From Schaalia sp. 19OD2882 (GTDB lineage Bacteria; Actinomycetota; Actinomycetes; Actinomycetales; Actinomycetaceae), in assembly GCF_018986735.1 (NCBI RefSeq), contig NZ_CP065521.1, positions 558,001 through 622,000 on the forward strand: a stretch of 64,000 nucleotides of DNA. The letters are read 5' to 3'. Of this stretch, positions 4,101 to 26,248 are shown piece after piece. How positions within the stretch are numbered: the stretch's first letter is position 1; every line of letters begins with the position of its first letter. The translations under genes were made by a program, and so were the position numbers. Below the pieces are notes generated by a model. The model made no database searches and was not told the origin of the DNA. It worked only from the letters and a program-made list of their open reading frames with translations.

Positions 4101-4214
4101 CGGGAGTCGGAGGCCGAACCCGAACTGACAGACCTGGGAGGCGGACACCATTGTGTCGAATTGAGCCCCTTCCAGATCATCACCATTCGGATCGACAGGG
4201 GAGACCGTGAGTGA
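1107..4214 (+). CDS. Alpha-mannosidase, glycoside hydrolase family 38
   Basis: Retaining zinc-dependent alpha-mannosidase of 1035 residues, the usual size for bacterial GH38. The metal-binding motif GHAHIDSGWLWP carries H273 and D275. The nucleophile motif MWLPDSFGYSAALPQI carries D385, and a GYGDGGGGPT loop follows near residues 473-482. A central helical domain and C-terminal beta-sandwich domains complete the family layout. There is no signal peptide, so it should act in the cytoplasm on imported oligosaccharides. It is the first gene of the operon, starting 31 bases after the predicted -10 box, and its end overlaps the next gene by 8 bases. It probably removes alpha-linked mannose from N-glycan-type oligosaccharides. 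The exact linkage cannot be read from the sequence. Confidence 0.95.
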   Translation: MHHNRSILHKRVERTLREKLAPATVSVIGALDVSAWRVPLEAGVIGEPIPYALVPLDEFTPIAVGDTWGAPWQTTWMLFTAQIPSSEQVALAPGDTLEARIDLGWQDHSPGFQCEGLVRDEDGRTVKALNPRNTWVPLPAPAEDETPFRFTVEAAANPLLLDVPPFQVTYQGHKTTATSKEAYALTRADLVVRHAEVDALFWDMTVLSELIAVQEDLDARGWQILLALSHAIDVLDLQDIPNTAAAARAVLAPLLAEPASPSAHHLSAVGHAHIDSGWLWPLRETRRKVNRTLANVVRLLDDGADMIFALPAAQHVAWLEEEDPELFERVKRHVARGRIVPVGSMWVEADGQLPGGEALARQFVEGERWFREKLDFTCKEMWLPDSFGYSAALPQIAREAGICRFLTQKISWNQVDKFPHHTFLWEGIDGTRIFTHFPPVDTYGSEITAEQLHHAQTNFQDKGCASASLLPYGYGDGGGGPTRDMGERITRFANLAGAPRIEHETPQQFFDRAIAEYPDPPVWVGELYLELHRGTLTSQIAIKQGNRRCESVIREAEHWAALAAHAGLVDYPHEELRKAWQDLLLTQFHDILPGTSIAWVNEEAAGLHRRVLGTCEEVITRSLRALTGADAVHVNPPDAPRPHEAHLANASAFPERGVAPFAADAQRTGTASAALTFDPETRTASNGRVTARFDESGALVSLRGKDGAELVPPGGRAGVFEVFQDFPNMWDAWDIDPFYKGTRQVLDLEPCGIEQGPDRIVVRAASHFRNSELRLAWILDSDAESIDLHVHADWHEHEHLCKLAFPVDIHTDHAQFETQFGHLRRPIHENTSWDACRFEVSAHRWLRLAHATAALSIANDATYGWDLTRHLHQDGTSGRRRGTWTLVRATLVKSARFPDPEQDQGSFEWNFRLHPGATTLDAVADGQHLNLRQRFLDGAQRSVAAPFTVDGAVVESVCVIPHTDNSLALRLYEARGGSSTVHLHTEADARVRLVDLLYRESEAEPELTDLGGGHHCVELSPFQIITIRIDRGDRE

Positions 4215-5361: not shown

Positions 5362-6626
5362 TCCCCGATCCTCTCTCGGCCGCCGAAGAAGCCGGCATCG
5401 ACGTGTTCATCGCGCCCGGGCAGGCCACGTACACGGTGACCCGTCTGCCCGAAGGGGCCGGCGATTGCGCCGACGTGACAGGAATCCGTGTGACGGCACC
5501 GACCCAGGCGGGTCTGGTGTGGGGAGCGGCCCAGGTTCTCGCCGAGAAGGCGGCCGGCGCGCCCGTCACCCAGGGCGAGTTCGACCCGCCTTACGCGCGT
5601 CGAGGACTGCACGTCGATTCCGCCCGCCACTTCTTCGAACCGCAGCACATCCACGACCTGCTGCACATCATGGCGTGGGGGCGGCTGAACGTCATGAACC
5701 TCCACCTCTCCGAGAACGAAGGATGCCGCCTTCCCTCCCAGCGCCACCCCGAGATCATGTCCGAAGCCCATTTCTCACGGGAGGACATCCGCGGATTCAT
5801 CGAGGAAGGCCAACGCCTGGGGATCACCGTCATCCCTTCGATCGACATGCCCGGGCATTTGGGCAGGGCCTTGGAAGGAAATGAGTGGGCGCAATTGCGG
5901 GACCAGGACGGGACGCCGATCCGCGGCGCCCTCGACATCCTCAATCCTGAGGCCATCGCCTTCGCATGGGACATCCTCGACGAGGCCGTCGAACTCTTCG
6001 GCGCCGAGGAGGTCACCATTGGCGGAGACGAATTCCTCGACCTCGGCGTGGGAGTTCCCGCCCTGCATGCGGCGGCGCAGGAACGATTCGGCCCGGACGC
6101 GGCCGAGAACGACCTGTGGATCGATTTCGTCAACCGAACCGTCGAACGTCTTGCCGCCAAAGGCGTGCGCTCAGGCGTGTGGAACGACGGGATCCGAGGC
6201 CGTCGTGTCGTCGACCTGGATCGGCGCGCGCTGCTGCACCACTGGACGCGATGGGGGCAGCACATGGCCGCTCCTTGCGAACTGTCCGACCACGACATGG
6301 TCAACTGGGACGCGGATGCCCTGTACTTCGTCCTGCGCCGCGACCAGCTCCACCTGCTTCCCACATTCGACTCGGTGTGGGACAACTTCGAACCCTCGCT
6401 CTTCCTCGACCGCGTCGGACACACCCGTCTGCGCAATGTCGAAGGAGCAGTGTTCTCCATCTGGTGCGACGAGCCCGACGCTTTGAGCACCGTCTCCATT
6501 GTGCGACTCGCGAAAGATCCCATCCTGGCCTTCGCCTGTCGTTGTTGGCCGCTGGGAGGCCTGCACGGCAAAGCTGCCGTCCACTCCGCCTTCTCGGCCG
6601 TGACCCAAGAAAGGGAAGGAAAATGA
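5358..6626 (+). CDS. Beta-N-acetylhexosaminidase, glycoside hydrolase family 20
   Basis: A 422-residue GH20 exo-hexosaminidase that releases terminal GlcNAc or GalNAc. The hallmark RGLHVDSARHFF near residues 77-88 opens the barrel. The catalytic Asp-Glu pair is D224-E225 in IGGDEF, which uses the substrate's acetamido group as nucleophile. A short N-terminal GH20b-like domain precedes the barrel. There is no secretion signal. The ATG at 5358 overlaps the previous stop (ATGA), which fixes the start even though the frame is open far upstream. Together with the GH38 and GH5-like enzymes it would complete exo-trimming of an imported complex-type glycan fragment. Confidence 0.93.
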   Translation: MIPDPLSAAEEAGIDVFIAPGQATYTVTRLPEGAGDCADVTGIRVTAPTQAGLVWGAAQVLAEKAAGAPVTQGEFDPPYARRGLHVDSARHFFEPQHIHDLLHIMAWGRLNVMNLHLSENEGCRLPSQRHPEIMSEAHFSREDIRGFIEEGQRLGITVIPSIDMPGHLGRALEGNEWAQLRDQDGTPIRGALDILNPEAIAFAWDILDEAVELFGAEEVTIGGDEFLDLGVGVPALHAAAQERFGPDAAENDLWIDFVNRTVERLAAKGVRSGVWNDGIRGRRVVDLDRRALLHHWTRWGQHMAAPCELSDHDMVNWDADALYFVLRRDQLHLLPTFDSVWDNFEPSLFLDRVGHTRLRNVEGAVFSIWCDEPDALSTVSIVRLAKDPILAFACRCWPLGGLHGKAAVHSAFSAVTQEREGK

Positions 6627-7924
6627 CACGAGGACGTCCTCTTGTTGCACTCGTGGCCGCCGGGGCAATGATTTTCGGCCTGGCAGCCTGCACAGGTGGT
6701 GGCCCCACCACCTCGACCGAAACCCCTGCTTCGGCAGCGGCCTCCGGTGAAGTCGCCGGAGAGATCACGTTCCAGACCTGGAGTCTGAAGAACGAGAAGT
6801 TCACGCCGTACTTCGAGAAACTCATTGCGGAATTCGAGAAGGAGAACCCGAAAGTCAAGGTCAAGTGGCTGGACCAGCCCGGCGAAGGCTACGAGGAGAA
6901 GCTTCTCCAGCAGGCCAATGCCGGTGAACTGCCCGATGTCGTGAACGTGCCCCCGCAATTCGGATACCAGTTGGCCAAGACCGGTCAGCTCCTGGACCTG
7001 CGCGCGGCCGACTCGGCCGTGCTCAAGGACTACGTCGAAGGCGGTCTTGCGGCCTACCAGTACACGGACGCGGGTCTCGAAGGCTCCTACGGCTACCCGT
7101 GGTACCTGGGCACCATGTTCAACTACTGGAACATGGACGCCCTCGCAAAGGCGGGTATCACCGAGATCCCCACGGATGAAGCGTCCTACTACGCGGCAGC
7201 GGAGAAGGCAGGGGCCAAGGGTGTGGCCCTGCTCCACTCGGTGCCCTCCATCGGAACCTTCGCCGCCCGCGGCATCCCGGTCTGGGACGCCGACAAGCGT
7301 GAGTTCGTCTTCAACACGGACGAAGCCGTGAAACTCGTCGAACGCTACGCCGACCTGTACGCCAAGGGCGCACTCCCTCCGGAACTCATCACTGCCTCTG
7401 ACAACGGCGCCGCCAAGAACGAGGCCTACTACAAGGGGGTTCTCGGCAACATCCAGTCCACTCCGTCCTTCGTCGGGGCAATCGCGGACAATGCTCCGTC
7501 ACTGACCGACAAGACGAAGGTGACGAACCCGTGGGAAACCCCGCAGCTGCTGGTCCAGGGCATCTCCGTGTCCGCCAAGTCGAAGGCCCCCGCCGCCGCA
7601 CTGGCTTTCGCCAAGTACGTGACCAACAACGAGAACCAGGTGGCTTTCGTCAAGATCGCCAAGGGCTTCCTGCCCGGCACCGTGGAGGGAAACAAGAACG
7701 CCGCAGACTTCGCATCCGCGGAGGATTCGGCGCTGATGAAGGAAGCCCTCAAGGTCGCCGGTGACACCGTCCAGAAGGCAGAGCTCCTCGGGCCCCTCGA
7801 GGTGTCGAACCAGATGGAGACCATCATCGTCCAGCAGGTGTCGGCAGCCATCACAGGACAGCGCAGCGCCAAGGAAGCACTGGACACCGCCGTCCAACAG
7901 TGCAACCAACTTGTGACGAAGTGA
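6623..7924 (+). CDS. Sugar ABC transporter substrate-binding lipoprotein
   Basis: A 433-residue extracellular solute-binding protein of the carbohydrate type (MalE/UgpB-like, family 1). It has a lipoprotein signal peptide with lipobox GLAAC, the lipidated cysteine being C23, then a Thr/Ser-rich linker and a two-lobe binding fold starting EITFQTWSLKNEKF. It captures the oligosaccharide outside the membrane for the two permeases encoded next. ATGA overlap with the GH20 gene fixes the start at 6623, preceded by AAGGGAAGGA. No ATPase gene is present; the importer probably uses a shared MsiK-type ATPase encoded elsewhere, as is common in actinobacteria. Confidence 0.93.
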   Translation: MTRGRPLVALVAAGAMIFGLAACTGGGPTTSTETPASAAASGEVAGEITFQTWSLKNEKFTPYFEKLIAEFEKENPKVKVKWLDQPGEGYEEKLLQQANAGELPDVVNVPPQFGYQLAKTGQLLDLRAADSAVLKDYVEGGLAAYQYTDAGLEGSYGYPWYLGTMFNYWNMDALAKAGITEIPTDEASYYAAAEKAGAKGVALLHSVPSIGTFAARGIPVWDADKREFVFNTDEAVKLVERYADLYAKGALPPELITASDNGAAKNEAYYKGVLGNIQSTPSFVGAIADNAPSLTDKTKVTNPWETPQLLVQGISVSAKSKAPAAALAFAKYVTNNENQVAFVKIAKGFLPGTVEGNKNAADFASAEDSALMKEALKVAGDTVQKAELLGPLEVSNQMETIIVQQVSAAITGQRSAKEALDTAVQQCNQLVTK

Positions 7925-7937
7925 GTCGGAGCGGGTC

Positions 7938-8966
7938 ATGAAATCCTATCGTTCGTACACGCCCTACCTGCTGATCGGACCAGCAGTGCTCTGGGTCGTG
8001 GTGTTCGGCCTGTGGCCCTTCGCGAACACGATCTTCCTGTCGTTCACTGATGCTCGACCTCTTCAAGAGGTGACGATTGTCGGGTGGGCGAACTACGAAC
8101 GGCTTTTCGCTGACCCGCAGTTCCGGGAGGCCCTGCTCATTTCGCTGCTCTATGCAGCCGCGTGCGTGCCTCTGCTGACGATCCTGCCCCTTCTGATTGC
8201 ACTTCTGGTCGTGAAGAAGATCCCCGGAATCGGATTCTTCCGGACCACCTCCTACTTCCCGGTCGTCGCATCGATCGTCGTGGCGGGAATCATCTGGTCC
8301 TGGTTGTTCGACTCCAAGGGCATCATCAACGAGTCATTGCAGGCAATGGGGCTGACGGACGCGCCGATCCACTTCCTCATCGACAGGTGGAAGCTGCTCG
8401 GATGCGCCATCGCCCTGACCGTGTGGAAGGGGCTGGGGTACTACATGGTGGTGTACCTGGCTGCACTGGCCAACATGGGTACGCAGATCCAGGAAGCCGC
8501 CGCTCTGGATGGGGCGGGATGGTGGCGGAGGCTCTTCTCCATCGTCATCCCCTCCATCCGGAGCGCCATGATCCTCGTCGCCGCGTTGATCTGCGCCTCG
8601 GCCATACGCGTCTTCTCGGAAATCTACGTGCTCTCCAACGGCACAGGAGGTCCGGGTGGCCTGGACCAGTCCATCGTCATGCTCATCAAGAGGGTCGGTC
8701 AGGGCCTCAACGGAGACCTGGGCTATGCGTCGGCCATGTCCGTGGTGTTGTTCCTGCTGACCCTCGTGCCTCTTCTCGTCGTCGCCTACTTCAATCTCGA
8801 CGGGCGTGAGCGTCTGGCCAAGATGCGCAAACGCTGGAAGCAGCGTTCGGCCTCCGCAGGGGAGGAGGCCCCCGGCGAGGCGGCAGTCCTTGCCGCTTCG
8901 GCAGCGGGACGAGGGCGAGCCCGGCACTCGGACGGCGGGCACTCACGGAAGGGAGAGACACGATGA
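7938..8966 (+). CDS. Sugar ABC transporter permease, MalF/UgpA type
   Basis: A 342-residue inner-membrane permease with about six hydrophobic helices, the first being YLLIGPAVLWVVVFGLWPF. The cytoplasmic EAA loop, EAAALDGAGWWRRLF, sits near residues 187-201 and docks the ATPase. The last 40 or so residues are a charged Ala/Glu/Arg-rich cytoplasmic tail, longer than usual. It begins 13 bases after the binding-protein gene and ends in an ATGA overlap with its partner permease. Substrate choice is inferred only from the neighbouring glycosidases. Confidence 0.92.
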   Translation: MKSYRSYTPYLLIGPAVLWVVVFGLWPFANTIFLSFTDARPLQEVTIVGWANYERLFADPQFREALLISLLYAAACVPLLTILPLLIALLVVKKIPGIGFFRTTSYFPVVASIVVAGIIWSWLFDSKGIINESLQAMGLTDAPIHFLIDRWKLLGCAIALTVWKGLGYYMVVYLAALANMGTQIQEAAALDGAGWWRRLFSIVIPSIRSAMILVAALICASAIRVFSEIYVLSNGTGGPGGLDQSIVMLIKRVGQGLNGDLGYASAMSVVLFLLTLVPLLVVAYFNLDGRERLAKMRKRWKQRSASAGEEAPGEAAVLAASAAGRGRARHSDGGHSRKGETR

Positions 8967-9889
8967 GCACCCTGGCCGCAGGTGGCGCCGATGGCACGAG
9001 GGCATCGAGAGCTCCTCGAATCCATCAGGAGAAGTGGTACCAACGCGGTTCGGCCCCTTACGAGCACGTCACCCCGGGGCTGGTCATCGCAAAGTACGTG
9101 CTCCTGGTCCTCCTGCTGGTCATTTCCGTGGGCCCGTTCATCTGGGAGCTCTCCACGGCGCTCAAGGGACCAGGGGACGACATCTACCAATTCCCTCCGC
9201 AGCTCATTCCCAGTGAGCCGACCTTGGCCAACTTCGGCACGGTTGCGGACCGCATTCCGATTCTGTCCTACGCATGGCACTCGGTGCTGGTGGCGATTGC
9301 CAGCGTCATCTCCAATGTCGTCTTCGGGACCCTTGGCGGCTACGCGTTGGCCCACATGGAGTTCCGAGGCAAGAAGATCGCCATCGCGATCCTCCTGTCC
9401 ACACTGATCCTTCCGGGCGAAGTCACCCTGACCTCCCAGTACCTGACGGTCAAGTCCCTCGGAGTCGACAACTCGCTGGTCGGGGTGTGGCTGCCAGGAG
9501 CCGTCGGAACGATGAACGTCCTGCTCATGGCAGTGTCGGCACGAATGATTCCGCGCGCCCTCATCGATGCGGCGATCATCGACGGGACGAACACCTGGCA
9601 GCGTCTGCGCTACGTCGTCTGGCCCAATGTGCGCGGCATGGCCTCGGTGGTCGCCCTCTTCTCCTTCATCGGCGCCTGGGACGACTACCTGTGGCCTTTG
9701 GTGGTGCTCTCCGATCCCGAGAACTACACGCTCACCGTCGGAATGCAGTACCTGAAGTCCTCGTTCTCGGAGAATCCGCGTGTCGTCGCGGCCGGCACGA
9801 TCATCGCCCTCGTCCCCATCATCATCATCTTCGCGTCGATGCAGAAATACTTCTTCCGCGGAGTCGAGGAAGGCGCGGTGAAGGGATGA
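8963..9889 (+). CDS. Sugar ABC transporter permease, MalG/UgpE type
   Basis: A 308-residue permease and partner of the preceding gene. About 40 hydrophilic residues come before the first membrane helix (KYVLLVLLLVISVGPFIW). The EAA-loop equivalent IDAAIIDGTNTWQRL near residues 201-215 contacts the ATPase. The N-terminal extension is slightly longer than in MalG. The ATG at 8963 overlaps the previous stop and its own stop overlaps the next start, so all three transporter genes and the epimerase are translationally chained. Confidence 0.92.
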   Translation: MSTLAAGGADGTRASRAPRIHQEKWYQRGSAPYEHVTPGLVIAKYVLLVLLLVISVGPFIWELSTALKGPGDDIYQFPPQLIPSEPTLANFGTVADRIPILSYAWHSVLVAIASVISNVVFGTLGGYALAHMEFRGKKIAIAILLSTLILPGEVTLTSQYLTVKSLGVDNSLVGVWLPGAVGTMNVLLMAVSARMIPRALIDAAIIDGTNTWQRLRYVVWPNVRGMASVVALFSFIGAWDDYLWPLVVLSDPENYTLTVGMQYLKSSFSENPRVVAAGTIIALVPIIIIFASMQKYFFRGVEEGAVKG

Positions 9890-11124
9890 GCGCAGTGGAT
9901 CCGCAGTGGCGTCATCGTGAACGCGACGCCCTCGTCTCCTTCGCAACGAATGCCGTCCTTCCGGGAGGTTTCGGCTACCTCGATGCTCACGGACGTCACC
10001 AGGGCGACCACGGCTGTGAATTGTGGATCAACGGGCGTTTCACCCACGTGTTCGCCTGCGAGGTCCTGCGAGGAAACACCCGGGCGTGGGAACTGCTCGA
10101 CCACGGGATGGGTGCACTGACGCACTCGCTTCACGACGACGAATTCGGGGGGTGGTTCCGCGCGGTCGACACGCAGGGGCACGGCCCCCTGACCCCGGCG
10201 GACACCGTGAAGGAGGCCTACTCCCACGCATTCGTGGTCCTGGCGGCCGCCGGCGCTCTTCAAGCGGGGCACCCCGAGGCCGCAGACCTCTTGGAGGAGG
10301 CGGTGTCCACGACCGAGCGGTACTGGTGGGAGCCCGAACACGGTCGAGTCCGGGAAAGCGCCAGTCGGAACTGGACGTCCTTCGAGCCCTACCGTGGCAT
10401 CAATGCGAACATGCACACGGTCGAATCGATGCTCGCCGTCCATGACGCGACAGGGGACACCCGATTCCTCGACCGTGCCGTGGCCGTCTGCGACTTCGTC
10501 CTGGAGGGGGCTGCCGGCAGGATCTGGCGGATTCTCGAGCACTACACGAGTACTTGGCAGCCGCAGCCCGAATACAACCGTGACCGGCCGGCGGACCCGT
10601 TCCGTCCTTACGGCGCCACCGTGGGTCATGCCTTCGAGTGGGCGCGACTGTCGATCCAGGCCCATGTGACCAAGCAGCGGCACGGGACGGGTAGGGCTGA
10701 CCTTTCGCGGGAGATTGCGCTGATCAGGCAGGCGCTTGCCGATGGCTGGGCGGTGGATGGTGCTCCCGGCTTCGTGTACACGACGGACTTCGACGGGCGC
10801 CCGGTCGCCCACGAGCGCATGCACTGGGTGGTGTGTGAGGCGATCAATGCCCTGGTCGTGCTCCGCGCGGCCGCGCGTGAACTCTCCCTTGATGCGCAGA
10901 TCGACTGCGATGCGTGGGAGAGGGTCTTGTGGGACTACGCGCGTGAGCATCTCATCGCCTCTCCAGGGCACTGGCGCGAAGAACTGGACAGCCGCAATCA
11001 ACTCTCGGAACGCACCTGGACCGGTATGCCGGAGATCTACCACGCCTACCAGACCCTGGTGCTGCCCGATGGTGACTACGCGTCGGGCTTTGCCCGGGCG
11101 GCCAAGGGGCTCCGAGAGGATTGA
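9886..11124 (+). CDS. AGE-family epimerase/isomerase (mannose isomerase-like)
   Basis: A 412-residue (alpha/alpha)6-barrel protein of the N-acylglucosamine 2-epimerase family, which includes mannose isomerase and cellobiose 2-epimerase. Family marks are the RGINANMHTVESMLA segment, the WRILEHYTSTW segment and the EFGGWFRAVDTQG loop. The ATGA overlap at 9886 sets the start. Placed last in an alpha-mannosidase operon, it most likely converts released D-mannose to D-fructose. Bifidobacterial N-glycan clusters contain the same kind of enzyme. N-acetylglucosamine/N-acetylmannosamine epimerisation is the alternative. No kinase for the product is encoded in the operon. Confidence 0.85.
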   Translation: MSAVDPQWRHRERDALVSFATNAVLPGGFGYLDAHGRHQGDHGCELWINGRFTHVFACEVLRGNTRAWELLDHGMGALTHSLHDDEFGGWFRAVDTQGHGPLTPADTVKEAYSHAFVVLAAAGALQAGHPEAADLLEEAVSTTERYWWEPEHGRVRESASRNWTSFEPYRGINANMHTVESMLAVHDATGDTRFLDRAVAVCDFVLEGAAGRIWRILEHYTSTWQPQPEYNRDRPADPFRPYGATVGHAFEWARLSIQAHVTKQRHGTGRADLSREIALIRQALADGWAVDGAPGFVYTTDFDGRPVAHERMHWVVCEAINALVVLRAAARELSLDAQIDCDAWERVLWDYAREHLIASPGHWREELDSRNQLSERTWTGMPEIYHAYQTLVLPDGDYASGFARAAKGLRED

Positions 11125-11269: not shown

Positions 11270-12574
11270 TCACTGCTCCAAACGGGTGCCCAACTTCTCC
11301 TTCGTGGCCCACAGGCCTGCGGAGGGGGTCGAGATGAAGAACACGACCTCGCCATCGGGCATTGTGTTCCACCCGTCCTGCATCACCTCCGGGTCGTATC
11401 GACGCAGAGCCTCGTCACAGTCCATGTACGCGAAACCCACGCCTTCGATGTCCTCACGGCTCAGGTGCCCCGGCGCGTAGCGCACCGTGAAACGCCCCTC
11501 GGGGGAGCTGTGCGGCAGGTGCGCGGTGCCGTGAGGAATGTCCTGCATGTCCTCCTGGGTCCTGAAGAGGTCGATGACCTCCTTCTGACCGATGTACCCG
11601 TACTTGCGAATCAGCGCCTCGACCTCGGGTTGCTCGCCGAAGCGCTCCACGCCCGGGGCGATGATGAGCAGCTCGCCGCCGTCCGCGATGGCCATGCGGG
11701 TGCGGTAGATCGCCTTGTTCGCCACCCACGTGGCGTGGAACTCATCGCCCTGCATGACGGCCACGATCTTGTGGACGGGTTCGTCGAAGACAGTGATGTT
11801 CTGCGCGCGGCTGGCCTTTGCCGCATCCAGGTAGGTCTCCAGGTCGTCACCGACATAGATTCCCGTGTGTTCCAGATGGCCGCCCTCGTCGTAGGCCATG
11901 ACCACCTGCACGTACACGTCGGGGAGGCCACCCAGGAACTCGTCCTCGGCCTTGTTGAAGCACTTGCGCGCCGGGGTCAGCAGATTCCCCAGGTTGTTCT
12001 CGATGCCGTGGACGGCCGAGAGCATGTGTGAAGCGCCCAGCGTCCGCTTGCCGCCCAGGCCGATGAAGTAGTTCTTGTTGTGGTTGGCAAAACCCAGGAC
12101 CTCGTGGGGCACCACGTGCCCCAAGTTGATGACCAGGTCCCAGTGCTCGGTCATGAGCATCGTGTTGAGGTCCACCGGCATGTCCCAGTCGACCAGGCCA
12201 CCGGAGACCTGCGCCAGGTACGAGCCCGGCACCGTACCCACGTGGACGACGCCGTCCTTCCAGTCGTGGGCGTGGATGCGTTCCTCGGGGATCGAGCCGA
12301 ACATCCACCGGTTCTGCTCGGGCGTGTGCGGAACGTGCTGGCCCAGGGTGGGGATGACGTGCACTTGGGCGCCCATGGCTTCCACATGGTGGTAGAGGTG
12401 CTCGGTCATCCATCCCAGGCCGGCGTGGGCGCGAGTGATGTCGGGAGGCAGCAACAGCACGCGATCCAACCTGTCGATTCCGAGGCGCCGTTGCGACTCC
12501 TCGACGGTGCGTTCCAACAACCCTTTGATGGTGGCCCGGTCGATGCCTTTGCCCGTGTGCGAGAACCACGTCAT
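11270..12574 (-). CDS. LarA-family nickel-pincer hydroxyacid racemase/epimerase
   Basis: A 434-residue member of the lactate racemase (LarA, DUF2088) superfamily. These enzymes use the nickel-pincer nucleotide bound to a lysine to invert alpha-hydroxyacids. H157, K167 and H183 have the same spacing (10 and 16) as H174, K184 and H200 of Lactobacillus LarA, and H103 in HAHDW matches the fourth histidine. K167 is the expected cofactor-anchoring residue. Neighbours are sugar-related, so a sugar acid such as D-mannonate/D-gluconate is a better substrate guess than lactate. The cofactor genes larB, larC and larE are not in the window. ATGA overlap links it to the upstream HAD gene. Confidence 0.85.
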   Translation of the reverse strand: MTWFSHTGKGIDRATIKGLLERTVEESQRRLGIDRLDRVLLLPPDITRAHAGLGWMTEHLYHHVEAMGAQVHVIPTLGQHVPHTPEQNRWMFGSIPEERIHAHDWKDGVVHVGTVPGSYLAQVSGGLVDWDMPVDLNTMLMTEHWDLVINLGHVVPHEVLGFANHNKNYFIGLGGKRTLGASHMLSAVHGIENNLGNLLTPARKCFNKAEDEFLGGLPDVYVQVVMAYDEGGHLEHTGIYVGDDLETYLDAAKASRAQNITVFDEPVHKIVAVMQGDEFHATWVANKAIYRTRMAIADGGELLIIAPGVERFGEQPEVEALIRKYGYIGQKEVIDLFRTQEDMQDIPHGTAHLPHSSPEGRFTVRYAPGHLSREDIEGVGFAYMDCDEALRRYDPEVMQDGWNTMPDGEVVFFISTPSAGLWATKEKLGTRLEQ

Positions 12575-13509
12575 CGCAGTGTCCTTTCCTTGGAGGTCGT
12601 CGTGGGGCAGTCCGTGCGCCAGGGCGGGTCCGCAGGCAGCAGGGCTTCGAATTCGGTGACGAGGGCGTCCTGGTAGGCACCCCTGTAGGTCCCGGCGAGG
12701 AAACGCGGCAACGCCTCCTCACGGAAGCGCTTCCACGAGGCCGCTTCCCCTCCGGGATTGATGGGGTAGAAGAGAACACCTTCGCCGAAGGCCGCATCCC
12801 GGTCGCCCGGGGCGTCACCGATGAGCAGGATGTGGTCGTCCTCGTACTTGCCCTTGGCGGCCAGACGCAGGTGCTCCGCCTTCGAGCCCATCTCCTGGCC
12901 GGCGATGACCTTCACGTACTTGGCGAGGTCGTGTTCGCCCCACTCGCGGGCAAGGGCTTCGCCCGGCGTGGCTGACACCGTCATGCAGTCGACGTCGGTC
13001 TGCATGGCCTCCATGGCCTCACGCACGCCGGGGAAGGGGGCGCAGCCGCGCACCATCCAGGCGATGAGCTCATTGACGCCGTGGCCCCAGGTCACGCACC
13101 GTTCGATCTCTTCGGAGGGATTCGCGGCGGCGAATTGGGCGATGCCGGCGTCCGACAGGGGCAGCCCCGAGCCGATGAAGCGTTTGAGTTCATCTCCGTC
13201 GGGGATCTTCACGCCGCGGGCGGCGACCTCGGGACGCTCTCGCAGCAGGTCGAACAGGCGCGCCAGGGCTAGCCAGCGATTCCGGCCACGTGTCGTCGAG
13301 TACAAGTTGACGAACAGCGCCGTCTGCCGCACCAGAGTCGATGCCGCCTGCAGGTCGAAGTACTTGATGTAGGCGGGGGTGAAGCACTCCTGGTGCTTGA
13401 TGTCCATGGCGTCCATCGCGCAACCGTCGGAGTCGATTCCGACGAAGAAGGACTTCGTGGGGACGAAGTCGATGAGCGCTTGGGTGGCTGTGTGGGATGT
13501 GATGGTCAT
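12571..13509 (-). CDS. HAD-superfamily hydrolase
   Basis: A 312-residue haloacid-dehalogenase-fold phosphatase. Motif I is GIDSDGC (residues 24-30), motif II is the VSATP segment, motif III the lysine in GSKAEHL, and motif IV LIGDAPGDRDAA. A large helical cap lies between motifs I and II. The start is the ATG at 13509 behind GAGGAA. The longer open frame upstream runs through the GH3 gene and is rejected. It lies 10 bases after the GH3 gene, and its stop overlaps the LarA-family start. The substrate is unknown; a sugar-acid or sugar phosphate is likely from context. Confidence 0.82.
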   Translation of the reverse strand: MTITSHTATQALIDFVPTKSFFVGIDSDGCAMDAMDIKHQECFTPAYIKYFDLQAASTLVRQTALFVNLYSTTRGRNRWLALARLFDLLRERPEVAARGVKIPDGDELKRFIGSGLPLSDAGIAQFAAANPSEEIERCVTWGHGVNELIAWMVRGCAPFPGVREAMEAMQTDVDCMTVSATPGEALAREWGEHDLAKYVKVIAGQEMGSKAEHLRLAAKGKYEDDHILLIGDAPGDRDAAFGEGVLFYPINPGGEAASWKRFREEALPRFLAGTYRGAYQDALVTEFEALLPADPPWRTDCPTTTSKERTLR

Positions 13510-13519
13510 GGTCTGTTCC

Positions 13520-15289
13520 TCACACCCTTGCGTCCGGGAAGCCGCAGTACGCGTCCACCGGGGAAACACCTGTGAACTGCGACCGTCCTTCGAGCTTGTC
13601 CAGCACGGCGACCAGGGTGTGTTCCTTGTCGTCGTAGGCGTTGATGAATGTCCGCACCTGGGGGACGTCGGCCATGTCGAAGGGGCCGCCGGTGGCCACG
13701 TAGACGACCGGAAGTTCGTGGACGTACCACGGGATGTCCACAGTGCCTTTGGTCGCCGGCCATGCCACACGTTGGGCGGGCTGCATCATTCCGTCGACCT
13801 TGGCCACCAGCAGGACGAGGTCGTAGGAGTCGGTCAGAGTGGCGATCGGCGCCTTGCCTGCGTAGATGTCGCGTACTCGTGCCGCCTGTTCCTCGGGCGA
13901 GAGTTCGGCGAGCACGCTCAGCAGGGATTCGTGGACAGTGACCTCGTAGCCGCGTTCGCCGAGCAAACGCGCGACGACATCGGCGGGGTGCGTGGCGCCT
14001 CCGCCACCACCGAAGGCGCGACTGATGGGGTTCTCGGGTCCGCTGACGGGGACGACGAGGATGCGGCGGTGCCGTTGGGGCGACAGGGGCAACAGCCCTT
14101 CCTCCCGCGACTTGACCAGGGTCACCGCGCGGTCCGACACGGCCGGTGCCAGCGCGAGATTCTCCGCCAATCCAATGCGTGCCATGGCCTCTTCCTTGGG
14201 GGCGAGGATCTGTTCACGCGGGGTCGAGTGCAATTTGAGGCGCGCCTTGAGTCCGAGGATGCGTTGCAGGGCCTGCGTGAGCCGCTCCTCGGTGATGACG
14301 CCGTCCCGGTGGCCCTGCAGCATCCACTCGAAGTCCTCATCCGGGTCATTGAAGAACAGGAACAGGTCGCAACCTGCGGCGATGGCGCGGGGCAGCAGGT
14401 CCTTGCGCGACATGCGTCCGGTCAGACCCACCATGTGCGAGGCGTCCGTGACCACCAGGCCGTTGAAGCCGAGGCGGCCACGCAGCAGGTCGGTGACCAG
14501 CTCCTTGGACAAGGTGGCGGGCAGCAGGTCCTCGTCGGTGGTCTCGGGGCTGAAGAAGCGCTGGTAGGCGGGCTGCATGATGTGGCCGACCATGATCGAG
14601 GGCAGTCCTTCGTCGATGAGTCCCCTGTAGACCTTGCCGAAGGTGGCGTCCCATTCCTCGCAGCTCAGGGAATTCACGCTGGAGGAGAGGTGGTGGTCGC
14701 GTTCGTCGATGCCGTCACCCGGGAAGTGCTTGGCGGTCGGCAGGATTCCGGACTCCATGATTCCCCGCATGTACGCCTTGGACATTTCCAGGACCAGGTC
14801 CGGGTCGTCGCCCCAGGTGCGGGTGCACACGATCGGGTTGCGCCAGTTGCGCACCAGGTCGACGATCGGCGCGAAGGACCAGTTGCAGCCGATCGCACTG
14901 GCCTCGACGCCGCTGACCCGCCCCATCTCGTAGGCCCACGACGGGTCGGCGGTGGCACCGATCTTCACTTCCCATCCGACGTAGGTGCCGTCGGTGCAGG
15001 CGCCGTTGCCGCCGGCTTCGGTGTTGGCGGCGATGAGCAGTGGAATCTTCGAGGAGGTCTGCAGGATGTGGTTCTGTTCCCACACTTCTTCGGCGATGCC
15101 GGGGTTGTATCGTACGGCGCCGATGTGGAAGCGGTCGAGGATGCCGGTCAAGTACTCCTCGGTGCGCTTCGAGCCCATGTTGACGAAGAGCTGGCCGATC
15201 TTCTCTTCGTCGCTCATCGATGCGATGGTGTCATTGACCCAGTCGATGTCCTCTGGGGCCAGGTTGAAGGGGGGTGCGGACAGATCCAC
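13520..15289 (-). CDS. Glycoside hydrolase family 3 protein (NagZ-like)
   Basis: A 589-residue cytoplasmic GH3 enzyme. The segment KHFPGDGIDERDHH (187-200) carries the Asp-His pair D198/H200 that NagZ-type enzymes use as acid/base. The nucleophile is D282 in VTDASHMVGL. A second, C-terminal alpha/beta domain follows from about residue 370. The GTG start at 15289 is preceded by AAGGAG. It is the first gene of a minus-strand unit with the HAD and LarA-family genes. The NagZ-like acid/base suggests a beta-N-acetylhexosaminide substrate or a phosphorolytic variant, but the sugar is not certain. Confidence 0.87.
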   Translation of the reverse strand: MDLSAPPFNLAPEDIDWVNDTIASMSDEEKIGQLFVNMGSKRTEEYLTGILDRFHIGAVRYNPGIAEEVWEQNHILQTSSKIPLLIAANTEAGGNGACTDGTYVGWEVKIGATADPSWAYEMGRVSGVEASAIGCNWSFAPIVDLVRNWRNPIVCTRTWGDDPDLVLEMSKAYMRGIMESGILPTAKHFPGDGIDERDHHLSSSVNSLSCEEWDATFGKVYRGLIDEGLPSIMVGHIMQPAYQRFFSPETTDEDLLPATLSKELVTDLLRGRLGFNGLVVTDASHMVGLTGRMSRKDLLPRAIAAGCDLFLFFNDPDEDFEWMLQGHRDGVITEERLTQALQRILGLKARLKLHSTPREQILAPKEEAMARIGLAENLALAPAVSDRAVTLVKSREEGLLPLSPQRHRRILVVPVSGPENPISRAFGGGGGATHPADVVARLLGERGYEVTVHESLLSVLAELSPEEQAARVRDIYAGKAPIATLTDSYDLVLLVAKVDGMMQPAQRVAWPATKGTVDIPWYVHELPVVYVATGGPFDMADVPQVRTFINAYDDKEHTLVAVLDKLEGRSQFTGVSPVDAYCGFPDARV

Positions 15290-15302
15290 CAGGGGGTTCT
15301 CC

Positions 15303-15320
15303 TTGCCTCATTTGCCTCAT
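15303..15320. repeat. Tandem 9-base direct repeat in a divergent promoter region
   Basis: Two perfect copies of TTGCCTCAT lie head to tail, just upstream of the GH3 ribosome-binding site and in the shared region before gnd. This could be a regulator site or slippage. A second feature of this spacer is an inverted repeat with arms at 15357-15370 and 15440-15453 (one internal mismatch). Confidence 0.5.
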
Positions 15321-15486
15321 TGCACGGCTGCGAACGATTCAAGGGTTTCATCGGGGTGCCTGCCGGGCGCTCGGTTTCCATGAGTTGCCACAGGCGGCGC
15401 CCTCGTTCGTGCAACTGGCGGCAACCCGCGTCCGCCGGCGTGCCCGGCGGGCAGTCTGGCTTCACGTACGAATGAAGGAGGATTCG

Positions 15487-16941
15487 ATGTCGATCTCCAC
15501 CCCAGCTCGGGCAAGCGCCGACGTCGGCGTCACCGGCATGGGCGTCATGGGCCGCAACCTCGCCCGGAACCTTGCGCGCAACGGCCACACCGTGGCCATC
15601 CACAACCGCAGTGCCGACAAGACCGAACAGGTCTTCGCCGACCACGGCAGTGAGGGCGTTTTCGTCCCTGCCGAGACCATGGATGACTTCGTCGCCTGCC
15701 TGCAACGCCCTCGCGTGGCCATCATCATGGTCAAGGCCGGTGCCGCCACCGACGCCGTCATCGAAGAACTGGCGTCACGCATGGACGAGGGCGACATCAT
15801 CGTCGACTGCGGCAACACCCTGTTCCACGACACCCGACGCCGGGAGGCAGCACTGCGCGAACGCGGAGTGCACTTCGTGGGCGTGGGCGTTTCGGGAGGT
15901 GAAGAGGGCGCCCTGTGGGGTCCTTCGATCATGCCCGGCGGTCCGGTGGAGGCCTACGGGCGACTGGGCCCCGTGTTCGAAACGATCAGCGCCAAGGTGG
16001 AGGACACTCCGTGCTGTACGCACATCGGCCCCGACGGGGCAGGCCACTTCGTGAAGATGGTGCACAACGGCATCGAGTACGCCGACATGCAGGTCATCGG
16101 CGAGGCCTACGACCTGCTGCGTCGCGTGGCGGGACTGGAACCGGCCGAGATCGCCGAGGTCTTCGCGACATGGAACCGCGGCGAGTTGGACTCGTATCTG
16201 ATGGAGATCACCGTGGAGGTCCTGCGTCAGGTCGATGCGCGTACGGGCAAGCCTTTCGTCGACGTCGTCGTGGACGCCGCAGGCCAGAAGGGCACGGGCG
16301 CATGGACCACTCAGACTGCGCTGGACCTGGGTGTGCCGGTCACAGGCATCGGTGAGGCCACCTTCGCCCGAGCACTGTCCGCCTCTCCGCTCCAGCGGCA
16401 GGCGGCCCGGGACCTCCCGGGGCAGATCCCGGCGACCGACCCGGTTGACCGTGACACATTCGTCGAGGACGTCCGCCAAGCGCTGTACGCCTCCAAGCTC
16501 ATCGCCTACACGCAGGGTCTCAACGAGATCCAGGCTGCCGCCGCCGAATACGGGTGGGACCTGGACCTCGGGGCGATTGCGCGCATCTGGCGTGGCGGCT
16601 GCATCATACGTGCGCGTTTCCTCAGCGAGATCACGGCGGCCTTCGAAGCCGATCCGGCTCTGCCGCTGCTCATCTCCGCCGCGGTGTTCCGCGACCGGAT
16701 CGTCGCGGCACTGCCGTCCTGGAGGCGTGTGGTCGTGGCATCGGCTCAGCACGGGGTGCCTGCACCCGTGTTCTCCTCCTGCCTGTCGTACTACGACGCG
16801 CTGCGATCCGACCGCCTGCCTGCAGCCCTCATCCAGGGGCAGCGGGATTTCTTCGGAGCGCACACCTACGGCCGTGTCGACGCACCGGGTGCCTTCCACA
16901 CCCTGTGGGCCGTCGAAGGCCGCCCCGAGGTCGAGGCCTGA
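15487..16941 (+). CDS. gnd: 6-phosphogluconate dehydrogenase, decarboxylating
   Basis: A 484-residue 6PGDH that oxidises 6-phosphogluconate to ribulose 5-phosphate, CO2 and NAD(P)H. The dinucleotide motif GVTGMGVMGRNLARN starts near residue 13. The family segments VSGGEEGALWGPSIMPGG and HFVKMVHNGIEYADMQ follow; the latter carries the catalytic lysine and the HN substrate pair. The length fits the 470-485-residue homodimeric class. The ATG at 15487 follows GAAGGAGGATTCG; an in-frame ATG 15 bases earlier lies upstream of that site. It is divergent from the GH3-HAD-LarA unit and followed 27 bases later by a sugar kinase, so it appears dedicated to sugar-acid catabolism rather than only housekeeping. 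Confidence 0.95.
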   Translation: MSISTPARASADVGVTGMGVMGRNLARNLARNGHTVAIHNRSADKTEQVFADHGSEGVFVPAETMDDFVACLQRPRVAIIMVKAGAATDAVIEELASRMDEGDIIVDCGNTLFHDTRRREAALRERGVHFVGVGVSGGEEGALWGPSIMPGGPVEAYGRLGPVFETISAKVEDTPCCTHIGPDGAGHFVKMVHNGIEYADMQVIGEAYDLLRRVAGLEPAEIAEVFATWNRGELDSYLMEITVEVLRQVDARTGKPFVDVVVDAAGQKGTGAWTTQTALDLGVPVTGIGEATFARALSASPLQRQAARDLPGQIPATDPVDRDTFVEDVRQALYASKLIAYTQGLNEIQAAAAEYGWDLDLGAIARIWRGGCIIRARFLSEITAAFEADPALPLLISAAVFRDRIVAALPSWRRVVVASAQHGVPAPVFSSCLSYYDALRSDRLPAALIQGQRDFFGAHTYGRVDAPGAFHTLWAVEGRPEVEA

Positions 16942-16968
16942 GCCGGGCAAGGACGGAAAGGATCGGAG

Positions 16969-18045
16969 ATGGAACTACGCGCTGACGCACGATGGTCCCT
17001 GGTGGTGCCCACCTCGATGGGGGTCCGACTGACGCCGGACAACCGTCAGGCCACCCACACCTGCGACCACTTCTTCCTCCTGCAGGCGACCTCCGCGGAG
17101 ACCAACGTCGCCTCGATCGCCTCCCACTTGGGGCTCCCGACCAAGGTGCTCACCAACTTCGTGGAGGGATCGCCCATCGCGGCCTTCATCAAGGCGAATC
17201 TGCGAGCACGCGGCATGGAGGTCGAAGGCCGCGAGGTCCCGCAGGGAGATGCGTGGGGGTACCGCCACCAGTTCAACATTGCGGACTCCGGCTTCGGCGG
17301 ACGCGCCCCGCGTGTGTGGAACGACCGTGCGGGCGAGGTCGGGCGCACTCTGGCGGCCACCGACTTCGACCTGGAGGCCCTGTTCGAACGCGACGGGGTC
17401 AAGATCGTGCACATGTCGGGTCTGATCGCCTCCCTGTCGCCCGAAACCGGTCGCCTGTGCGTGGAACTGGCGCGTGTGGCTGCCGAGCACGGGACGGCGG
17501 TGAGTTTCGACCTCAACTACCGCGCCTCGTTCTGGAAGGGGCGCGAAGAGGAGCTTTCGGCCGCATTCCACGCCATCGCCGAGCACTGCGACATCCTCTA
17601 CGGCAACGAAGAGGACTTCCAGTTGTGCCTGGGCATCGAGGGCCCTGAGGTGGGCGGCAGTGGAATCGACGCTCAGATCGACCAGTTCGCCGGCATGATC
17701 GAACGCGTCCGCGCCGCCTACCCGAAGGCCACGTGGGTGGGAACCTCTTTGCGCGAGGTCGTCTCGGCGAACCACCACAGGTGGGGCATGATCCTGTGGG
17801 GCCAGGGCCTGCTCGAGGTGGTTCCTTTGCGTGACATTGACGTCCTGGACCGCATCGGTGGAGGCGACGCGTCGATCGGTGGTGTCCTGTACGGCATCCT
17901 GCGCGGGTGGACCACGCGAGAGTGCGCCCACTTCGGGTGGGCCACCGGCGCCCTTGCTGCCACCAGTGTCCACGACTACGCGGCTCCCGCCGACGAGGCG
18001 CAGGTGTGGGGCGTGTGGGAGGGCAACGCTCGCGTCCAACGCTGA
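16969..18045 (+). CDS. PfkB-family carbohydrate kinase (KDG kinase-like)
   Basis: A 358-residue ribokinase/PfkB-fold kinase. The C-terminal signature RIGGGDASIGG (295-305) contains the catalytic base D300. The RIGGGDA form is typical of 2-keto-3-deoxygluconate kinases, and SFDLNYRASFW is also found in that group. It lies 27 bases after gnd, so it probably shares its transcript. If it phosphorylates gluconate, it would feed gnd directly. If it acts on KDG, it belongs to an Entner-Doudoroff-type route whose aldolase is not in the window. Family assignment is firm; substrate is open. Confidence 0.88.
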   Translation: MELRADARWSLVVPTSMGVRLTPDNRQATHTCDHFFLLQATSAETNVASIASHLGLPTKVLTNFVEGSPIAAFIKANLRARGMEVEGREVPQGDAWGYRHQFNIADSGFGGRAPRVWNDRAGEVGRTLAATDFDLEALFERDGVKIVHMSGLIASLSPETGRLCVELARVAAEHGTAVSFDLNYRASFWKGREEELSAAFHAIAEHCDILYGNEEDFQLCLGIEGPEVGGSGIDAQIDQFAGMIERVRAAYPKATWVGTSLREVVSANHHRWGMILWGQGLLEVVPLRDIDVLDRIGGGDASIGGVLYGILRGWTTRECAHFGWATGALAATSVHDYAAPADEAQVWGVWEGNARVQR

Positions 18046-18236: not shown

Positions 18237-18584
18237 TCAACTCAGGCAGAGGAAGAGTTTCTCCAGGTCGTTGACGTCGTGGGCGGGGTCGTCGTCGGTG
18301 AGGCACTCGCGCATGGCGCTGGAGATGACGGTGAAGCCGGCCCGTTGCAGCGCGGAGGTCGCGGCAGCCAGTTGGGTGACGACGTCCTTGCAGTCGCGGC
18401 CCTCTTCGACGGCGCGGATGACTCCGTCGAGTTGTCCGCGCGCCCGCTTGAGACGGTTGATGACCTTGCGTCGGGTTTCCCGGGCCTGTTCCGGTGCGTG
18501 CGGTGAGGCGAGGGCGTTCGTGGTGCCCTTCGACGAGGGCGGGACCTCGCCCTGGTGATCGTGCGGCCTGGATGTTCGTCCCAT
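18237..18584 (-). CDS. CsoR-family repressor, CstR-like (persulfide sensor)
   Basis: A 115-residue all-helical tetrameric repressor of the CsoR/FrmR/CstR family. The two conserved cysteines are C65 and C94, spaced 29 as in both CsoR (C36/C65) and CstR (C31/C60). The copper-ligand histidine of CsoR, four residues before the second cysteine, is alanine (A90) here. That pattern fits thiol/persulfide sensing rather than Cu(I) sensing. The ATG at 18584 is 9 bases after GAGGAG; the in-frame TTG upstream is too close to it. The gene is divergent from a CoA-disulfide reductase-rhodanese gene, with a CsoR-type operator between them. The N-terminal 30 residues are a poorly conserved, charged tail. Confidence 0.87.
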   Translation of the reverse strand: MGRTSRPHDHQGEVPPSSKGTTNALASPHAPEQARETRRKVINRLKRARGQLDGVIRAVEEGRDCKDVVTQLAAATSALQRAGFTVISSAMRECLTDDDPAHDVNDLEKLFLCLS

Positions 18585-18609
18585 GTCCAAGAACTCCTCT
18601 TCCGTGCTC

Positions 18610-18685: not shown

Positions 18686-20443
18686 ATGCAGGTCGTCATC
18701 GTCGGAGGTGTCGCCGGAGGAATGAGCTGCGCCGCGCGCCTGCGCAGACTCGACGAGAACGCCTCGATCATCGTCCTCGACAAGGGCCCGGACGTGTCCG
18801 TCGCCAGCTGTGGCCTGCCCTACCACGTGGGCGGAGAGATCCCCGACGAGGCCTCACTGCGCGTCCAGACGCCCGCATCCCTGCGGGCCTCCCTCGACCT
18901 CGACGTGCGCACGGGACACGAGGTCCTTTCCGTGGACCCGCAGGCGCGCACCGTCCTCGTCCGCAACGCCGCAGGGAAGCACACGATCGGGTGGGACGCC
19001 CTCGTCCTTTCCCCCGGCGCAACCGCCGCCCGCCCACCCATCCCCGGAATCGACTCGCCTCGCGTCCACGAACTTCGTGTCGTCGAGGACGCCGTCCGCC
19101 TCAAGGCCGCCGTGCGCGGTGCCACGCGGGCAGTGGTCGTCGGTGGAGGATGCATCGGGATCGAAGCCGCCGAAAACCTGCGCCTTGCGGGCCTGGAGGT
19201 CACACTGCTCGAAGGCAGCGACCACGTCCTGCCGCCTTTGGACGCCGAAATGGCCTCCCTGGCGCGCGCCGAACTGCGGCGCCTGGGCATCGAGGTCGTC
19301 GAAAACGCTCCTCTTGCCGAGATCCGACCCGGAGCCGACGCCGACACCCTGGTCCTGGCCGACGGGCGCACCTGGGAGGCCCAGGTCATCGTCGTCTCCG
19401 TGGGTGCCCGAGCCGAGACCGCGCTGGCGGCATCCGCCGGTGTCGCACTCCAGAACGGGGCGTTCGTCATTGACGGTCGCGGGCGAACCGACGTCGAAGG
19501 AATCTGGGCCATCGGCGATGCGGTGAACCAGACCCACTTCGTCACCGCCTCCGTGCGCCCCGTGCAACTGGCCGGACCCGCGAATCGAGCGGGCCGCCTG
19601 GTGGCCGAGGATGTCATCGCCTTCACAACGGCCGCTTGCGGACAGGGGGCGGATGGAGACACCGCGCCCGCAGCGCAAGCGTCGACCTCGTGGAAGACCC
19701 CGCAGGTGGGCGCCGCCAGCGCGCGCGAACTGCCCAAGCCCTTGGGGACCGCCATCGTGCGCATCGGCGAATTGCAGGTGGCGATGACCGGCGCCTCCAA
19801 GCGGGAGTTGGAGCGTGCGGGGATTGAGCACCGCACCATCCACCTGCACCCCAACCAGCACGTCACGTATTTTCCGGGGGCCGAGATGATGGCCCTGGTC
19901 CTGCACTTCGACCAGGAGGGCCGGATCCTGGGTGCCCAAGGTGTCGGTCGCGACGGCGTCGACCGGCGCATCGACGTCCTGTCCACCGCCATGCGGGCGG
20001 GCCTGCACGTGGGGGATCTGGCCGACCTGGACCTGTGCTACGCGCCGCCCTTCGGCGCCGCCAAGGACGCTGTCATGATGGCCGGAACCGCGGCCCAGAA
20101 CGTCCTGGACGGGACATTGACCCTGTGGTACCCGTGGCAATTGGCCGACGTGCGCAAAACCCACCTGATCCTCGACGTGCGCACGGTGGCGGAGTCCGAG
20201 GCCGGCCCGCGCATTCCGGGCGCCCTGCTGGTCCCGCACACCCAGCTGCGCGAACGCATGGAGGAAGTGCGCCGCGCCGCCATCGGGCGCCCGGTCGCCG
20301 TGCACTGCAAGTCAGGGGTTCGCTCCTACTTGGCCCATCGGATGCTCGCGGCGGCCGGGCTCGAAAGCGTCTCACTGTCGGGCGGCATGCTCACCCTGCA
20401 GGCGTGGGCCGAGGGGCGCGAACAGGGGCTGCTCGAAGGCTGA
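18686..20443 (+). CDS. CoA-disulfide reductase with C-terminal rhodanese domain
   Basis: A 585-residue FAD-dependent pyridine-nucleotide disulfide oxidoreductase fused to a rhodanese domain (CoADR-RHD). The FAD motif VVIVGGVAGG starts at residue 3. The active-site cysteine C42 lies in ASCGLPYHVGG, the single-cysteine form of CoADR. A second Rossmann motif, VVVGGGCIGIEAAE, binds NAD(P)H. A dimerisation domain follows, then the rhodanese domain with active-site C541 in CKSGVRS. Such fusions reduce CoA disulfide and CoA persulfide, linking thiol balance to sulfane-sulfur handling. AGGAGG precedes the ATG. The gene is controlled by an adjacent CstR-like operator and followed by a small Cys-rich protein. 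Confidence 0.93.
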   Translation: MQVVIVGGVAGGMSCAARLRRLDENASIIVLDKGPDVSVASCGLPYHVGGEIPDEASLRVQTPASLRASLDLDVRTGHEVLSVDPQARTVLVRNAAGKHTIGWDALVLSPGATAARPPIPGIDSPRVHELRVVEDAVRLKAAVRGATRAVVVGGGCIGIEAAENLRLAGLEVTLLEGSDHVLPPLDAEMASLARAELRRLGIEVVENAPLAEIRPGADADTLVLADGRTWEAQVIVVSVGARAETALAASAGVALQNGAFVIDGRGRTDVEGIWAIGDAVNQTHFVTASVRPVQLAGPANRAGRLVAEDVIAFTTAACGQGADGDTAPAAQASTSWKTPQVGAASARELPKPLGTAIVRIGELQVAMTGASKRELERAGIEHRTIHLHPNQHVTYFPGAEMMALVLHFDQEGRILGAQGVGRDGVDRRIDVLSTAMRAGLHVGDLADLDLCYAPPFGAAKDAVMMAGTAAQNVLDGTLTLWYPWQLADVRKTHLILDVRTVAESEAGPRIPGALLVPHTQLRERMEEVRRAAIGRPVAVHCKSGVRSYLAHRMLAAAGLESVSLSGGMLTLQAWAEGREQGLLEG

Positions 20444-21204: not shown

Positions 21205-26140
<4,936 letters not shown>

Positions 26141-26248
26141 CCCCACCCCGGTGGGGGGACACGGGACAACACCGCTCACAACCACTGTACAAACCACGAC
26201 CAACCCACACCCCCCAACACCAGGGGGCGTGGAACACGGTTGACACCA

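Follow-up and report, generated by a model that had tools for sequence, protein, structure and literature searches.

A route from D-mannonate through gluconate and 6-phosphogluconate to ribulose 5-phosphate was proposed for Thermotoga maritima by Rodionova 2012, as cited in PMC6978723, and the T. maritima epimerase has been shown to be active and probably channels mannonate to the pentose phosphate pathway (PMC7583248). The latter source gives LarA groups 19 and 20 as gluconate 2-epimerases and hypothesises that group 18 acts on a hexonate. LarC carries out a step in the synthesis of the nickel-pincer cofactor (PMC9283937, PMC12611868, PMC11851776), and LarB, LarC and LarE occur without LarA in about 15% of genomes (PMC11796402). 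Here we describe a group-18 LarA homologue, LarA18, encoded beside gnd and a pfkB sugar kinase gene in the one-contig genome of Schaalia sp. 19OD2882 (2.56 Mb, 99.94% complete), within a window of 64 kb (bases 558001-622000, the whole stretch of DNA that was analysed).

The best explanation of the data as a whole, to which we give a probability of roughly 0.7, is a glucuronide regulon in which LarA18 would serve as a hexonate epimerase that works independently of LarC. The initial annotation of the window had described five genes back to back and had read them as C2 epimerisation of a hexonate feeding gnd without the usual dehydratase, a pathway for which it recognised no described example. 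All five open frames were confirmed at 11270-18045 (Table 1), and the pathway holds up in its main lines and is of a kind already known; the claim of novelty fell, as the T. maritima route had been proposed and group 18 hypothesised to act on hexonates. As far as we found, what is undescribed is the larC-less state, its breadth, and a gene swap between relatives: a literature search whose coverage stopped short of most subscription journals and supplementary tables returned no mention of a LarA without LarC, group 18 included.

LarA18 and the predicted mannonate route

LarA18 belongs to NF052594 ("nickel-dependent putative hexonate epimerase"; 564 bits against a cut-off of 500), contains a Lar_N domain (Pfam, 47 bits) and has as its closest solved structure 4nar (101 bits). 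We take 4nar to be GntE of T. maritima. In the alignment with 4nar, D45, R48, H80, H157, K167, H183 and K287 are the equivalents of LarA D72, R75, H108, H174, K184, H200 and K298 (roles from PMC7583248 and PMC11770544), and all seven are invariant in the 68 rows of a group-18 alignment that contains one genome twice. They include the cofactor lysine (K167) and the three histidines (H80, H157 and the nickel ligand H183) that the initial annotation had already seen to be kept. Gluconate 2-epimerases (GntE) "usually" have E, V, A and H at the positions of LarA1 F175, F176, W358 and T359 (PMC11770544); LarA18 agrees at three of the four (E158, V159 and H348) and has P, not A, at the third. Across group 18, E and V stand in 68/68 rows and H in 67/68, and the third position is P in 43/68, A in 17, T in 6 and G in 2. 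LarA18 is predicted, from profile and residues, to be a hexonate C2 epimerase that interconverts D-mannonate and D-gluconate. The triplet before the cofactor lysine is ANH in 68/68 LarA18 rows versus SGG in 5/5 rows of the canonical LarA of relatives (LarA-X, below); the patterns FANHNKN or DMQDIPH had served to pick the loci of 51 of the 68 rows, and the free test of the ANH/lysine loop is the 17 rows from the same family.

The other genes of this predicted route lie partly outside the window. About 4 kb beyond its edge and 15-16 kb from larA18 are larE (~553.1-554.1 kb of the contig) and larB (~552.4-553.1 kb), in a stretch, L009, where one strand carries uxuB-like, uxaC, lacI, larB, larE, uidA in this order and the other a GPH (glucuronide-type) transporter gene. 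UidA, UxaC (500 bits, cut-off 387), LarB (NF033503, 269 bits, cut-off 175) and LarE (TIGR00268, 260 bits, cut-off 150) all passed curated models, and the UxuB-like protein passed the Pfam cut-off for the Mannitol_dh family. LarE carries SGGVDS and CxxC plus further Cys, and resembles in this the [4Fe-4S] type (PMC9283937). A profile search of the genome for the mannonate dehydratase UxuA gave no match at E 1, other dehydratases, gluconokinases and 2-keto-3-deoxy-6-phosphogluconate aldolase lying outside that search. Within the window, Gnd scored 710 bits with NF006765 (cut-off 413) and 652 bits with TIGR00873 (cut-off 427). The kinase passed PF00294 (74.5 bits), is closest in structure to 2afb, a 2-keto-3-deoxygluconate (KDG) kinase (112 bits), and is 75% identical to the kinase downstream of gnd in G096, a genome of genus g14; by its profile and structure matches it is a PfkB-family kinase, adjoining gnd, and not of the FGGY gluconokinase type.

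The genome thus encodes glucuronide-to-mannonate genes, a hexonate epimerase, a sugar kinase and gnd, and these could be ordered as follows. A beta-glucuronide would be cleaved to D-glucuronate by UidA, isomerised to D-fructuronate by UxaC and reduced to D-mannonate by the UxuB-like enzyme; LarA18 would then yield D-gluconate, the PfkB kinase 6-phosphogluconate and Gnd ribulose 5-phosphate, bypassing mannonate dehydratase. The window would hold half of a glucuronide-utilisation regulon, with the other half just upstream of it. Because larE and larB lie in the glucuronide cluster, a promoter motif is shared between the two blocks and no UxuA was found, a mannonate-to-gluconate route in this genome is well supported by gene content, and together with the NF052594 score and the GntE residues these points bear out the epimerisation without a dehydratase that the initial annotation had suggested.

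The motif tying the two blocks together lies in the GH3/gnd promoter and in the uidA/GPH promoter (L009 16008-16059). The two promoters share two 16-bp sites (14/16 and 15/16 bases) at an identical spacing of 20 bp, with 35 of 52 bases in agreement; the best agreement among 300 shuffles and 300 random window pieces was 32 of 52, figures that are a guide and not a test as the motif was spotted by looking. Independently, a repeat finder picked out the two sites in the window, 15373-15388/15411-15426, and classed them as an inverted repeat. The 64-kb window has a single copy of the core, GCAAC-N5-GCAAC, both directions being counted. Among 12 chosen loci of relatives that were scanned besides the window and L009, it stands upstream of gnd and again between larA18 and TRAP transporter genes in both G096 and G099, and in G173, of the same genus as 19OD2882, it stands between uidA and the GPH gene as well as in the GH3/gnd promoter. 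No palindromic operator with a central CG of at least 16 bp was found in the gnd promoter by the rule used, the shared motif being a direct repeat of 10-bp period; a scan for sigma-70 promoters and terminators gave no score above shuffles, and no Rfam element was found within 11-18.3 kb of the window. The motif connects the window genes to the glucuronide cluster and is a probable operator through which both may be regulated.

In T. maritima, GntE2 (LarA group 20) belongs to a UxaC-UxuB-GntE-GntK-Gnd route with the same predicted reaction and flow, and it shares with LarA18 the Glu that follows the second catalytic His in the 4nar alignment. LarA18 differs in falling into a separate group, and the kinase here is a PfkB protein whereas T. 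maritima has a gluconokinase. Our genome has UxaC and the decarboxylating Gnd, and no UxuA was found in it; the control searches of T. maritima returned a match for UxuA and one for LarC, which has none in our genome. Relative to the canonical larABCE system, larA, larB and larE are present and larC is lacking.

Table 1. Features of the larA18 locus (positions within the window)
Feature	Position	Strand	Basis
larA18 (group-18 LarA homologue), predicted D-mannonate/D-gluconate 2-epimerase	11270-12574	-	NF052594, Lar_N, 4nar match, kept residues
HAD-like gene	12571-13509	-	HAD_2 below cut-off
GH3 glycosidase gene, heading the larA operon	13520-15289	-	PF00933
Promoter motif with two sites, GCAAC repeated every 10 bp; probable operator at the divergent promoter	15374-15425	none	Shared with uidA/GPH promoter of the same genome
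gnd, NADP-dependent decarboxylating 6-phosphogluconate dehydrogenase	15487-16941	+	NF006765, TIGR00873 (scanned from 15490)
pfkB sugar kinase, predicted gluconate (or mannonate) kinase	16969-18045	+	PF00294, 2afb match

LarC and the exchange of LarA types

The initial annotation had proposed looking for larB, larC and larE in the same genome and would have counted their absence against its reading; larB and larE are present, and larC is the gene that is missing: PF01969 had no match in the genome, nor had TIGR00299 at a threshold as loose as E 10. We extended the profile searches to 213 genomes of the same GTDB family, of which 17 have LarA18, 37 any LarA, 22 LarC and 40 larE, including all 17 with LarA18. 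Where LarA18 is the only LarA, LarC is found in 0/16 genomes and larE in 16/16, whereas LarC is found in 21/21 genomes with another LarA, a group that includes G096, which alone in the family has both kinds of LarA (Fisher 8e-11 for LarC against LarA type, relatedness not accounted for). Genera g1, g14 and g15 each include both states. In this family, as judged from the profile matches, the absence of LarC goes with a group-18 LarA and not with a broken system. Three genomes (G124, G172 and G201) have larE without a LarA match, and G201 also has LarC.

Comparison of gene orders between relatives revealed a swap. In G173 the order is uxuB-uxaC-lacI-larC-larB-larE-uidA, a GPH transporter gene, and then HAD-GH3 divergent from gnd-pfkB-larX, where larX encodes a canonical LarA (LarA-X). 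Our genome has the same blocks with no larC between lacI and larB and no larX after pfkB; larA18 has been added after the HAD-like gene, and an operon running from a GH38 gene to an N-acylglucosamine epimerase-family gene now separates the two blocks. Within genus g14, the order in G096 is gnd-pfkB-larX-larE-larB-larC-lacI-uxaC-uxuB, and G099 shares this locus but lacks larX and larC in it, larA18 being elsewhere in both genomes. In two genera, that of 19OD2882 and g14, canonical LarA and LarC are absent together where LarA18 is present. LarA-X and LarA18 are about 28% identical and have the same E-V signature, so that both are predicted to be gluconate 2-epimerases in one pathway, and the loss of larC along with the canonical LarA points to LarA18 as the reason why LarC could be dispensed with. 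The larC of G096 (L094 8803-10211) falls into two frames, the break lying in its first half; a broken gene, a frameshift or a sequencing error are all possible.

Other genera and phyla showed conservation of the neighbourhood, another check that had been proposed. Stretches from 16 relatives, reaching up to 20 kb around group-18 larA, were searched with 17 queries: uxaC and uxuB were found in 8, gnd in 6, and larE and larB in 6, and in 7 of the 16 larA was the only match. Georgenia-type loci have an FGGY kinase gene after uxuB; the one copy typed had as its best NCBIfam match the gluconokinase model TIGR01314, at 352 bits and below the cut-off of 648. In the best 80 of 244 public loci, with genes counted within 9 kb of larA18 where the contig allows, there were larB in 26, larE in 24, uxaC in 15, gnd in 10, uxuB in 8 and pfkB in 2. 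The statement that LarA is rarely seen beside gnd and a PfkB kinase needs refining accordingly: near group-18 larA, gnd is found in 10/80 loci and this PfkB in 2/80, the two being in other phyla (Kiritimatiellae L146 and Lentisphaerae L175, with the order pfkB-gnd-larA18). A BLAST search at 1e-12 with actinobacterial LarC references found larC within 9 kb in 0/80 loci, and in Terriglobus and Granulicella larA18, larE and larB are consecutive without an adjacent larC. Some Terriglobus-type loci have uxaC, a tagaturonate epimerase gene (uxaE), a short-chain dehydrogenase gene and MFS transporter genes nearby; the epimerase, dehydrogenase and MFS genes beside larA18 (L142 3258-4505, L148) suggest that galacturonate feeds the same route there.

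Beyond the family, we searched 50 further LarA18 genomes, drawn from 50 of the 80 public loci. LarC was absent from 32/50, including the complete chromosome of Terriglobus roseus, and from 29 of the 36 in which LarA18 was the sole LarA match; it was mostly absent in Actinomycetota and Acidobacteriota rows. On a LarA18 tree of 68 rows, in which one genome appears twice, no fewer than 5 changes of LarC status are required along supported branches. LarC was present in 11/14 genomes with several LarA matches and in 7/36 with one (Fisher 1.8e-4, plain count). An explanation of LarC presence by extra LarA paralogues fits the family and this plain count and fails for significance by independent pairs.

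Several observations weigh against the reading proposed here. LarC is present in 18/50 of the outside genomes, 7 of them with LarA18 as sole LarA, where three matches are partial (G226, G249 and G258) and four full-length, among the latter G237 (Acidobacteriaceae), which keeps a larB-larC-larE cluster; planctomycete rows have LarC in 8/11. Conversely, G223, G225 and G231 have several LarA matches and no LarC match, though incompleteness may have hidden a LarC in these three. The association of LarC with an extra LarA was not significant on the LarA18 tree by independent pairs, many of the 50 genomes are metagenome-assembled genomes of unstated completeness, and larE was searched genome-wide within the family, larE and larB elsewhere being known within 9 kb. 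As for the pathway itself, the UxuB-like protein reached 229 bits with the fructuronate reductase model, below the cut-off of 603, and scored higher, at 260 bits and also below cut-off, with a D-arabinitol dehydrogenase model; the PfkB protein stayed under the cut-off of every specific NCBIfam kinase model. In the LarA18 genomes that have LarC, it may serve other proteins. Micropruina glycogenica, a complete sequence with LarA18 as sole LarA, has a LarC match that covers about the first 260 of 423 residues (L208 9024-9845), and no larB or larE match was found in the 19.5 kb of L208 that were read.

Completion of the cofactor

In the mechanism that we propose, LarB and LarE would make the sulfur-containing precursor pyridinium-3,5-bisthiocarboxylic acid mononucleotide (P2TMN), as in other bacteria, and LarA18 would take up P2TMN and complete the cofactor without LarC, the metal being acquired after or during P2TMN binding. 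The retained nickel-ligand histidine makes metallation on the enzyme, or a spontaneous one, likelier than a metal-free cofactor. The wider proposition, that group-18 LarAs are self-sufficient, either metallating the LarB/LarE product on the enzyme or using it nickel-free, and that LarA18 replaced a canonical epimerase together with LarC in related actinobacteria, seems to us evenly poised. The principal rival would leave LarA18 an ordinary enzyme and have LarC replaced by an unrelated nickel insertase encoded elsewhere. It would account for the retention of all nickel and cofactor residues including H183, by which the final cofactor is probably the normal nickel-pincer nucleotide, but no one additional gene was seen repeatedly next to larA18, larB or larE in different lineages, and the joint loss of larC and the canonical LarA points to LarA18 itself; we regard such an insertase as rather unlikely. 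The eight neighbours that recur inside or close to a single lineage typed as transporters (two, the MFS type among them), UxaE, short-chain dehydrogenases (two), a lipoate ligase, a DEAD helicase and a HIT protein, and none was retained as a LarC substitute. In genus g15, the gene next after larB encodes a HIT-domain protein (L096 7043-7540 and equivalents), whether or not the genome has LarC. The HAD-like protein was likewise ruled out for this role, as its gene adjoins GH3 in the LarC-bearing G173 and was not seen near larA18 in the other relatives.

The use of nickel-free P2TMN, or of a different metal, as the hydride carrier appears improbable: LarA in E. coli has been observed to bear a cofactor form without nickel (PMC11796402) and LarA18 has ANH in place of SGG before the cofactor lysine, yet the nickel-coordinating histidine stands in 68/68 rows, though with 51 of these recruited by pattern, one pattern covering the lysine loop. 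We are similarly doubtful of an order in which a mannonate kinase acts first and LarA18 then epimerises 6-phosphomannonate to 6-phosphogluconate. Cell extracts of Lactobacillus suebicus did show that order (PMC6978723), and the mannonate kinase/6-phosphomannonate 2-epimerase route of this species also joins mannonate to 6-phosphogluconate without a dehydratase; the order would suit a PfkB kinase that is not of the FGGY gluconokinase type. PMC6978723 leaves the L. suebicus genes unidentified, and the order of steps there may differ from that in our genome. Against a kinase-first order, the sub-cut-off gluconokinase match of the FGGY kinase in the Georgenia-type relative suggests gluconate as the substrate in that relative. 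Least probable by far is a LarC that is present but too diverged, or lost in an assembly gap, with the cofactor made as usual. The absence of LarC does rest on profile searches, and the outside sample is rich in metagenome assemblies, but LarC proteins of the same family score up to 400 bits, our genome is a single, nearly complete contig, and completeness reaches 97% or more in 15 of the 16 family genomes without LarC (57% in the other, G140).

Neighbouring genes and significance

The HAD-like and larA18 genes overlap by 4 bp and follow GH3 after a gap of 10 bp, gnd and pfkB are 27 bp apart, and about 200 bp separate the two divergent groups. The placing of HAD and GH3 in the larA operon, as given in the initial annotation, is confirmed; membership of the former protein in the HAD families is less secure, HAD_2 scoring 16.1 bits against a cut-off of 23.8 with no confident Pfam membership and no PDB match at E 1. 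What we take to be the DxDG and GDxxxD motifs are visible in it by eye. The GH3 protein passed PF00933 (200 bits) and reached no specific NCBIfam cut-off. Counterparts of both (79% identity for HAD, 78% for GH3) adjoin each other beside gnd-pfkB in G173, and neither was found beside group-18 larA in the other relatives among the 16 family and 80 public loci.

The operon between the two glucuronide blocks (window 1107-11124, plus strand) is one for glycan use, with a GH38 mannosidase, a GH20 hexosaminidase, an N-acylglucosamine/mannose epimerase-family protein, a solute-binding protein, two permease-like genes and a 384-residue protein without a significant Pfam match. On the other side of the locus, a CsoR-type metal-sensitive repressor gene (18237-18590, minus strand) adjoins one for a pyridine nucleotide-disulphide reductase with a rhodanese domain (18686-20443, plus strand), possibly, as a guess, a persulfide-response pair, and a complete ribosomal RNA operon (16S, 23S, 5S) follows just downstream at 21205-26367 on the plus strand.

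LarC has been described as the enzyme of the last step in nickel-pincer cofactor synthesis. If the reading given here is true, this cofactor, or a relative of it, could be completed in another way, a whole branch of nickel-pincer enzymes would need no LarC, and group 18 would generally do without it in the genomes of Actinomycetota and Acidobacteriota examined; production of such an enzyme in E. coli would be simpler, with three genes instead of four. Group 18 itself gains a concrete candidate substrate and pathway.

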